DNA of 34,945 bases. Origin: Candidatus Equadaptatus faecalis. GTDB taxonomy: Bacteria; Synergistota; Synergistia; Synergistales; Synergistaceae. Positions 15-14,447 of this stretch are shown one piece after another. The position numbers were made by a program, and so were the translations under genes. A model generated the notes under the pieces. The model had not been told where the DNA came from and searched no databases. It worked only from the letters and a program-made list of their open reading frames with translations. The number at the start of each line of letters is the position of its first letter. Positions within the stretch are counted from its first letter, which is position 1. The stretch covers positions 1 to 34,945 of the forward strand of contig JAGHTZ010000038.1 in NCBI GenBank assembly GCA_018065065.1, written 5' to 3'.

Positions 15-80
15 AAAATGCTATACGCTGCACGCTATATGCTATAAGCAAAAGCAAAAGGCATGTGGCAAAAAATCTTT

Positions 81-168: not shown

Positions 169-195
169 AGATAAAAAGACTCTTAAGGTGTTAAG

Positions 196-244
196 GCTTA
201 TAGCTTATGGCTTGCAGCTTTTAGCTTGTAGCTTATAGCTATGT
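196..244. repeat. Heptanucleotide repeat array, GCTTATA type
   Basis: Seven back-to-back 7-mers: GCTTATA, GCTTATG, GCTTGCA, GCTTTTA, GCTTGTA, GCTTATA, GCTATGT. The first four bases are nearly constant and the last three vary. The same motif recurs, partly in inverted orientation, at 13167-13235. It sits in gene-free DNA; open frames across it are an effect of the 7-bp (21-nt) periodicity. Confidence 0.75.
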
Positions 245-417: not shown

Positions 418-442
418 CCGCAGGAAGACGGTGATTTTTTGT

Positions 443-505
443 TTTTCATTTTGAATTTTGCACTCTGCATTTTGCACTTTACATTCTGCATTTTGCATTT
501 AGCTG
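443..505. repeat. Heptanucleotide repeat array, TTTGCAT type
   Basis: Eight consecutive 7-mers (443-498) follow the consensus TYTGCAY: TTTTCAT, TTTGAAT, TTTGCAC, TCTGCAT, TTTGCAC, TTTACAT, TCTGCAT, TTTGCAT, then a degenerate TTAGCTG. The array ends one base before the plsY stop codon, so it lies immediately 3' of that gene. The period matches the arrays at 196-244 and 13167-13235 but the unit sequence differs. Confidence 0.7.
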
Positions 506-11962: not shown

Positions 11963-12000
11963 TTTCTTTGCAAAAAACAATTTTGACAGGGGGAGCAGCA

Positions 12001-13161
12001 ATGAAGCTTTCGGACAGAATTTTGCAGATTAAGCCTTCCGCGACACTAAGTATTTCGGGCAAGGCAAAGCAGATGAAGGCAGAGGGCAGGCCGGTTATTT
12101 CTTTCAGCGTCGGCGAGCCTGATTTTGCAACGCCGCAGGCGGGCGCCAAGGCGGGAATAGACGCCGTTAACCGCGGCGAGTCGCATTATACGCTTACGTC
12201 AGGCATTATTGAACTCCGCAGGGAGATTTGCAATTATTACAAAAACCGTTTTGACCTTGATTACACCCCGGACGAAGTGACGGTAGCTTCCGGCGCCAAA
12301 CCGCTTCTTTACGAGGCGTTTCAGGTGCTTGTCAACCCGGGCGATGAAGTCGTTCTTTTTGCGCCGGCATGGGTAAGCTACGTTGAACAGCTGCATCTTG
12401 CAGGCGGCAAAGAGGTTCTCATTGATACGATGAATACGAATTTTGTTCCTGACGCGCAGGCTCTTGAAGCTGTGATTACGGACAAAACCGTGGGTATTGT
12501 TTTCAATTCGCCGAATAATCCGACAGGCGCAATGTTTGGGGAAGAAACTCTGAAGCTTATCGCCGAGACCGCAAAAAAACATGACCTTTGGATACTTTCG
12601 GACGAGATTTACGAACGCCTTTCCTACGGCAAACAGCATATCAACCTTCTGCAGGCTGCGCCTGACGTACGAGACCGCACAATTTTGATTAACGGCGCGA
12701 GCAAGGCCTACGCCATGACAGGCTGGCGCGTCGGCTGGGCGCTCGGACCGAAGGAAATTATTTCCAAGATTAACTCTTTGCAGGGACATCTGACCTCCAA
12801 CGCTTGCGCAGTCGCACAGTGGGCTGCTCTCGGCGCACTGCAGGGCGCGGAGGAGGACGTTGAAAAGATGCGTCTTGCCTTTGCGGAACGCCGCGAAACA
12901 ATAATGAAGCTTATCAGCGATATGCCGTATCTGAAAATCACGGAACCTGACGGCGCGTTTTACGCTTTTGTTAATATCAAGGACTGCCCCGTTCCTGACG
13001 ACATGGAGTTCTGCGCACGGCTTCTTGAGGAAAAATACGTAGCAACAGTCCCCGGCACCGCGTTCTTTGCCCCGGGCTACATCAGAATTTCCTACGCTTC
13101 CTCAATGGAAAATATTGTTGAAGGCATGAAACGTCTCAAAGAATTTTTGGAGAGCCTGTGA
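12001..13161 (+). CDS. Class I pyridoxal-phosphate aminotransferase (aspartate type)
   Basis: A 386-residue fold type I aminotransferase, closest in layout to the Bacillus/Thermus aspartate aminotransferase subgroup. Visible signatures: SFSVGEPDFATP at the N-terminus; SPNNPTGAMF carrying the cofactor and substrate asparagine; WILSDEIYERLSYG with the Asp and Tyr that hold the pyridine ring; INGASKAYAMTGWRVGWALG with the Schiff-base lysine; and a C-terminal GYIRISYASS with the carboxylate-binding arginine. The ATG at 12001 is chosen because GGGGGAG stands just upstream; an earlier in-frame start at 11968 overlaps the promoter. Monocistronic, with a heptamer repeat array immediately 3'. Aspartate is the likely substrate, but aromatic or prephenate specificity cannot be excluded. 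Confidence 0.9.
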   Translation: MKLSDRILQIKPSATLSISGKAKQMKAEGRPVISFSVGEPDFATPQAGAKAGIDAVNRGESHYTLTSGIIELRREICNYYKNRFDLDYTPDEVTVASGAKPLLYEAFQVLVNPGDEVVLFAPAWVSYVEQLHLAGGKEVLIDTMNTNFVPDAQALEAVITDKTVGIVFNSPNNPTGAMFGEETLKLIAETAKKHDLWILSDEIYERLSYGKQHINLLQAAPDVRDRTILINGASKAYAMTGWRVGWALGPKEIISKINSLQGHLTSNACAVAQWAALGALQGAEEDVEKMRLAFAERRETIMKLISDMPYLKITEPDGAFYAFVNIKDCPVPDDMEFCARLLEEKYVATVPGTAFFAPGYIRISYASSMENIVEGMKRLKEFLESL

Positions 13162-13166
13162 GTTTT

Positions 13167-13235
13167 AAGCTGGAAGCTGTAAGCTTTAAGCATTAAGATT
13201 TAAGATTTTGGCTTATAGCTTATAGCTTGCAGCTG
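13167..13235. repeat. Inverted heptanucleotide repeat arrays between convergent genes
   Basis: Left half: AAGCTGG, AAGCTGT, AAGCTTT, AAGCATT, AAGATTT, AAGATTT (13167-13208). Right half after TG: GCTTATA, GCTTATA, GCTTGCA, GCTG (13211-13235). The right units are reverse complements of the left ones, so the locus can fold into a long hairpin. It fills the gap between the convergent 3' ends of the aminotransferase gene and cca, and could act as a two-way terminator. The cca stop codon (13200-13202) and last eleven codons lie inside it. The right half has the same units as the array at 196-244. Confidence 0.75.
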
Positions 13236-14447
13236 TTTTACCGCTTCAATCTGTTTCTGTCTTATCCAGTCGGCAAGTTTTGTTCCCTTTAAGCCTTTCG
13301 GCGCGTCTTCGGCCTTTACCTTTTCCATTGCCTTAATATATTTGTCGGCATTTGCAAGACATTCTGCGTTTTCGCCGTGGTTGTCCGCTTTAACTATTAT
13401 CGAAAAACCTTCAATTCCGAGAGGATTTTTTTGCAGTCTGACAAGCAGATCCGCAATTTTTGCAGGCTGTTTCAGTCTTGCAGGGCGCATGTGCTCAGCT
13501 GCCGCAAATTCCGCCGCCATACGCCACTTTTTGGGGAGTTCAAAGCTTTTCGCAATTTCCTGTATTGTTTCAACACCTCTCTGCTCGTGTCCGAAATGGT
13601 GCGGCAGCATTTCCTCAGGCGTTCTGCCCTTGCCTATGTCGTGCATAAGCGCGGCAAAACGAACTTCCACGCGCTTCGTTTCTTTTGCGGTTTCGTCAAG
13701 CACCAGCATAGTGTGCTGAAAGGCGTCGCCCTCGGGGTGATATTCGGCAGGCTGGCTTTTGCCTGACAATGCCGCAATTTCGGAAAAAACGGCGTTCAAC
13801 AGTCCCGTCTGTTTCAGCGTAAGGAAAAATATTGATGGACGCGGAGCCGAAAGAGCTTTTTCAAGCTCCGACAAAATTCTGGGTTTGGGTTCGTTTGCAA
13901 GTTCTCCGGCACAGGCCGCCATCATTTCAAGCGTTTTGTGCGAAACGGCAAAATCAAACTGCGCCGCAAAACGCGCCGCGCGGAGAGCTCTCACAGGATC
14001 CTCGCTGAAATGCTCCGATGTCGCGCGGAGAATTTTATTTTTTAAATCCCTCCTGCCTCCGAACGGATCCATAAGCTTTCGTCCCAGCACGGAATACGCC
14101 ATGCTGTTTATCGTCAAATCGCGGCGGTATAAATCTTCCTCAACGGTAATGTCAGGGTTGTAGTCCACGCTGAAGCCGGTATAGCCCTGCCCCGTTTTTC
14201 TTTCGGTACGGGCAAAAGCTATTTCACAGCGTTTTGCGCCTACGTAAGCAAGATATACCGGAAAGCTTTTGCCAACCTTTACCGCGCGGGGAAAAAGCCG
14301 GATAAAATCTTCTTCGGAGATGCCGCAGAGCAGATAATCTTTGTCGTTCGGTTTTTTGCCGAGCAGTCTGTCTCTCACGCAGCCTCCGACAAGAAACAAT
14401 TCTCCTCCGGCTTCGTGTATTTTTTTCGCAAATTTAATTTCGTTCAT
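13200..14447 (-). CDS. cca: CCA tRNA nucleotidyltransferase with HD domain
   Basis: Class II nucleotidyltransferase that builds or repairs the 3' CCA end of tRNA. The N-terminal catalytic domain shows LVGGCVRDRLLGKKPNDKDY with the metal-binding Asp-x-Asp (KDY position) and the RRDLTINSMAY motif near residue 109-119, followed by the neck helix ALRAARFAAQFDF. A C-terminal HD phosphohydrolase domain follows (HTMLVLDETAK, ALMHDIGKG). 415 residues is a usual length for CCA/HD enzymes. All three tRNA genes in this window already encode CCA, so repair is the likely role. The last residues, QLQAISYKPKS, are encoded by the heptamer repeat array. No clear Shine-Dalgarno; a terminator hairpin stands between frr and this gene. 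A poly(A) polymerase role is the main alternative. Confidence 0.88.
   Translation of the reverse strand: MNEIKFAKKIHEAGGELFLVGGCVRDRLLGKKPNDKDYLLCGISEEDFIRLFPRAVKVGKSFPVYLAYVGAKRCEIAFARTERKTGQGYTGFSVDYNPDITVEEDLYRRDLTINSMAYSVLGRKLMDPFGGRRDLKNKILRATSEHFSEDPVRALRAARFAAQFDFAVSHKTLEMMAACAGELANEPKPRILSELEKALSAPRPSIFFLTLKQTGLLNAVFSEIAALSGKSQPAEYHPEGDAFQHTMLVLDETAKETKRVEVRFAALMHDIGKGRTPEEMLPHHFGHEQRGVETIQEIAKSFELPKKWRMAAEFAAAEHMRPARLKQPAKIADLLVRLQKNPLGIEGFSIIVKADNHGENAECLANADKYIKAMEKVKAEDAPKGLKGTKLADWIRQKQIEAVKQLQAISYKPKS

Follow-up and report, generated by a model that had tools for sequence, protein, structure and literature searches.

The convergent junction between an aspartate aminotransferase-like gene and cca, the gene for tRNA nucleotidyltransferase, carries a short inverted array of seven-base repeats in Candidatus Equadaptatus faecalis. 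The array is probably a local copy of a heptamer family that expanded in this lineage, and appears to have taken the position of a terminator hairpin together with the 3′ end of cca. The window analysed is the whole 34,945-nt stretch of DNA, and the genome that holds it (G000) comprises 1.6 Mb in 100 contigs. Repetition with a period of seven at the junction is far above chance: the period-7 self-match reaches 0.81 over 42 nt, the remaining periods between 2 and 13 nowhere exceed 0.70 in the window, and shuffled sequence gave no period-7 arrays.

A preliminary description, made from the letters alone, had placed six AAGC-type heptamers followed by three inverted GCTT-type heptamers at 13167–13235. 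The composition is confirmed and the position was correct to a few bases. Reading from left to right, the units of the left arm are TTTTAAG, CTGGAAG, CTGTAAG, CTTTAAG, CATTAAG and ATTTAAG, and a short spacer separates them from the right arm. As the description also stated, the stop codon and last eleven codons of cca are written within the array. These codons (13203–13235, minus strand) read CAG CTG CAA GCT ATA AGC TAT AAG CCA AAA TCT, in which three heptamers form one 21-nt unit encoding the seven residues LQAISYK. The stop falls within the loop of the predicted array hairpin.

Table 1 Features of the aminotransferase/cca junction and of other heptamer arrays in the window.
Feature	Position	Strand	Remarks
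Aminotransferase gene (aspartate aminotransferase-like)	11968..13161	+	Convergent with cca; stop adjoins array
Left arm	13163..13204	+	Six degenerate AAGC-type heptamers, NNNNAAG phase
Right arm	13212..13232	+	Three inverted-type heptamers: GCTTATA, GCTTATA, GCTTGCA
Predicted hairpin, 29 pairs, both arms	13168..13234	+	Followed by GUUUUACC on the + strand
cca tRNA nucleotidyltransferase gene	13200..14447	-	
cca stop (TAA, 13200-13202) and last eleven codons, QLQAISYKPKS, written in array	13200..13235	-	
Array, AAGC side of inverted pair, GCTATAC/GCTATAA units	20..46	+	Precedes palindrome-bearing stretch
GCTT-side array, partner of the 20..46 array	191..241	+	
Array of a different heptamer, TTTTGCA/CAYTTTG	435..503	+	Ends 4 nt from stop of - strand gene at 507

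The junction is predicted to fold on itself, as had been proposed, through a hairpin in which 20 of the pairs join one arm to the other. On the aminotransferase (plus) strand the minimum free energy is −35.6 kcal/mol (z −5.55) and the stem is followed by UUUU; the cca (minus) strand forms a weaker hairpin (−24.4 kcal/mol, z −4.90) with no U tract after it. Both strands fold better than all 200 dinucleotide shuffles. Thus, of the two-way terminator that had been suggested, the aminotransferase half is the better founded, with a stable predicted hairpin 3′ of the stop codon, as in an intrinsic terminator, whereas the cca half lacks the U tract. Neither strand of the junction gave a canonical terminator in a consensus scan.

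Comparison of the cca C-terminus with relatives had been set beforehand as a test. Among the relatives compared, conservation of the cca sequence stops near residue 405 and what follows is variable. In the sister genome G001, a Synergistaceae metagenome-assembled genome whose cca is 90% identical to that of G000, the genes on either side keep the arrangement of G000 across the junction, the C-terminal residues differ, and there is no comparable array, two degenerate heptamers (CAGCTTACAGCTGACAG) being kept at the site. The G001 cca tail reads KQLTADSKNLRQPEAAEGLA and runs through a perfect 15-bp palindrome, which is followed by UUUUU on the aminotransferase strand. As worded, the proposal of an original cca stop lost to the array is not supported, because cca in G001 is also extended, through its palindrome. 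A third species, G009, has a similar junction, where cca stops inside the loop of a GC-rich hairpin that is followed by UUUUUU on the opposite strand. The position of the predicted hairpin at this junction is conserved across the three species while the sequences are unrelated. This speaks for a terminator function inherited on the aminotransferase strand, although the consensus scan was negative. In this comparison the terminator-hairpin position is kept and its sequence appears to have been swapped for repeats that also rewrite the C-terminus of the neighbouring protein.

The junction array is one of many. A search for the heptamer dimer GCTTATAGCTTATAGC, allowing up to 2 mismatches, gave 164 sites in G000 and none with the reversed-pattern control; it gave 2 sites in G001, and the 59 remaining relatives had 0–3 each, roughly the number seen with their reversed controls. 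Period-7 trimers of AAGC/GCTT number 178 in 510 kb of G000, against 2 in the 145 kb sampled from G001 and none in the 232 kb sampled from other relatives. Contigs of G001 often end at repeats, and the absence of arrays there may be overstated. In 317 kb of G000 sequence chosen around matches we found 42 period-7 arrays; other periods from 4 to 20 gave 0–3 arrays each, save for 14, which is the harmonic, and 16, the period of a separate repeat. Most of the G000 stretches were picked for carrying matches, and no separate rates were taken from a sample of G000 contigs without listed matches, which is biased against arrays. At the exact AAGC/GCTT level, 306 same-strand pairs are spaced at 7 nt and 245 at the harmonic of 14 nt, with no more than 135 at any other spacing. 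The unit sequence varies from array to array (GCTTNNN, CAYTTTG, GCACTTC, GAACGAA, TTCGTCA) while the period stays at seven. The separate intergenic repeat, of the CAATTACNANAAGAAC type, has a 16-nt period and occurs in G000 at L034:5733-5810, L106:584-735 and L104:1112-1192; it is absent from the G001 and other-relative samples.

The arrays are mostly intergenic, with 2 of 43 inside genes and 260 of the 306 dimers between them. By gene calls that are hexamer-based predictions rather than published annotation, 15 arrays have the 3′ end of a gene no more than 10 nt away, 1 has a start codon as close, and 10 contain the gene end. The preliminary description had proposed a search for further arrays and their distance to stop codons; many were found, often at stop codons. 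Neither result that the description had named as contrary to it, shared C-terminal residues without the period in close relatives or a lack of other arrays, was obtained. A GAACGAA array of about 170 nt at L105:9207-9378 lies inside a predicted open reading frame. Where runs are adjacent, AAGC precedes GCTT in 22 cases and follows it in 4, and arm-to-arm pairing of 10–31 base pairs was predicted in all 18 AAGC/GCTT pairs that were folded, only some of which beat shuffled sequences. In larger mosaics the arms often bracket REP-like palindromes and shared motifs. Such mosaics are dense at L040:2700-4345, where REP-like palindromes bracketed by heptamer arrays lie between small genes of the same orientation.

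With a unit of exactly 7 nt, a genome-wide distribution and a mostly intergenic location, the G000 arrays belong to the known intergenic heptamer arrays, of which the cca junction is an informative example. Our literature search found nothing relevant on repeats in Synergistaceae. According to the available part of the Xanthomonas and Nostoc account (PMC4692102), each Xanthomonas genome has about 180 arrays of degenerate GGGAATC heptamers, mostly intergenic, with 70–75 close inverted pairs that could form stem-loops; in the two genera the GGGAATC and GGGGA(C/T)T repeats lie nearer one gene end, are rare between divergent genes, and form arrays whose length varies between related species. The G000 arrays resemble these in being degenerate, mostly intergenic, near gene ends and arranged in inverted pairs. 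They differ in that the Xanthomonas/Nostoc units form one family and are G-rich and quadruplex-forming, whereas G000 has several unrelated, A+T-rich units, and GCTTATA, CAYTTTG and its other units contain no G runs. Arms that bracket REP-like palindromes, and an array that provides the stop codon of a gene where a terminator would sit, occur in G000 and are not reported in that part of the account.

In marine Beggiatoaceae, arrays of TAACTGA are likewise genome-wide and intergenic, contain stops in all three frames when read in one orientation, and in some cases extend over the ends of genes (PMC4679880). There, however, the arrays are mostly direct repeats just upstream of starts, with one inverted case, whereas those of G000 favour stops and inverted pairs; related heptamers as direct repeats are rare in Beggiatoaceae and common in G000. 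Intergenic palindromes in composite blocks also recall REP/BIME mosaics (PMC2817692), but the G000 element is a heptamer array and no REP-associated transposase was found. A Synergistaceae species joins the small number of bacteria in which heptamer arrays have multiplied in one lineage. Since many different units share a single period here, the long-standing question of why the unit is seven bases long becomes testable.

How the arrays arose is suggested by sites at which G001 offers a counterpart. Five other junctions are spanned by G001 contigs and measure 9–34 nt there against 150–467 nt in G000. At junction J1 a short G001 sequence holds two degenerate heptamers, and at J3 G001 holds TCGTCATTG; G000 has a long array at both, and the G001 sequence looks like a seed of the heptamer expanded in G000. 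At both junctions the G000 array stands next to an ordinary terminator-like hairpin that has been retained, which indicates that arrays are not general replacements for terminators. Two IMG/VR viral contigs are identical over the stretch compared except that one has three copies of GCTTATA and the other six, a change of length by whole units seen directly. Because of the G001 seeds and this whole-unit change, we infer slippage from local seeds as the best-supported origin. Slippage alone does not account for the constant arm order and the shared palindromes, which suggest an added copying or recombination step. In both viral contigs, at L171:7391-7487 and L172:2994-3111, the GCTTATA array is joined to one of TTACTTG units. 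A phage origin of the array was considered and set aside; the 2.5 kb around the heptamer in the two viral contigs matched no annotated phage.

We therefore favour the following sequence of events, in which a family of intergenic heptamer arrays would have expanded in the G000 species after its split from G001. Two-unit seeds probably grew by slippage in seven-base steps, as observed between the two viral contigs, and the prevailing order of AAGC units before GCTT units would let each region fold on itself. To judge from the two relatives, the inherited state of the cca junction was probably an aminotransferase terminator hairpin that overlapped the 3′ end of cca. In G000 the array holds that position, and transcripts of the aminotransferase gene are probably still terminated or protected by its hairpin, while cca reads into the array and stops at the TAA in the hairpin loop. 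Each heptamer shifts the frame by one base, and arrays of TAA-bearing units would present stops in all three frames over a span of about 21 nt. Such arrays could then border on, or run into, the ends of genes with little harm.

It is possible, if doubtful, that neutral slippage is all that occurred, the array being a functionless filler of spacers by stop codons, where it does little damage, and the hairpin a by-product of inverted seeds. The many unrelated heptamers that share only their period are as such a process would leave them, as are the whole-unit difference between the viral contigs and the intact terminator-like hairpins adjoining the arrays at J1 and J3, and heptamer excess in bacteria has been attributed to polymerase slippage (PMC4692102). 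Slippage alone would not, however, be expected to give the 22-to-4 bias in arm order or to keep a hairpin at one junction over three species with unrelated sequences. That bias, as a constant polarity of the arms, instead fits a dispersed mobile or recombining element, a mosaic of REP/BIME type that spreads by copying. The arrays would be its arms, with palindromes nested between them, and 13163–13235 a solo, uninterrupted form. The near-empty sites in G001 and the shared cores bracketed by arms in G000 stretches (TTAGAACCTT, 16 copies; CGCAGAATCCAG, 15; GACGGGGATTTT, 10) would follow from such spread. We nevertheless regard this as rather unlikely, given that the genome has no Y1_Tnp/REP-associated transposase (PF01797), that no target-site duplication was evident by eye at the compared junctions, and that at J1 and J3 the array sequence resembles a seed already there in G001.

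Improbable, though worth stating, is a novel mechanism that advances seven bases at a time, copies between the two strands of a hairpin, and in this way writes the arrays and is able to remake terminators and the ends of genes; it is raised here because unrelated arrays in one genome all have period seven and are mostly inverted around palindromes. An assembly artefact, with repeats collapsed or chimeric in a fragmented assembly, might be feared from the 100 contigs and the proximity of several arrays to contig ends. We consider it very improbable at the junction, where the array fits within one read and both of its neighbours are complete genes, collinear with their G001 counterparts, and differences among the units speak against assembler stuttering.

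Several specific causes of the expansion were also considered and rejected. RAYT-driven spread of REP sequences is contradicted by a search of the genome for PF01797 (Y1_Tnp), which gave no match with controls working, and loss of mismatch repair by a mutS1 that is present at full length. The hairpin nuclease SbcD (TIGR00619) gave no match in G000, whereas controls and several other relatives were positive; it also gave none in the two nearest relatives, G001 and G002, and its loss is therefore rejected as the sole cause. Matches to the reverse transcriptase domain RVT_1 occur in G000 at G000:C88:1241-1852 and G000:C34:19578-19982.
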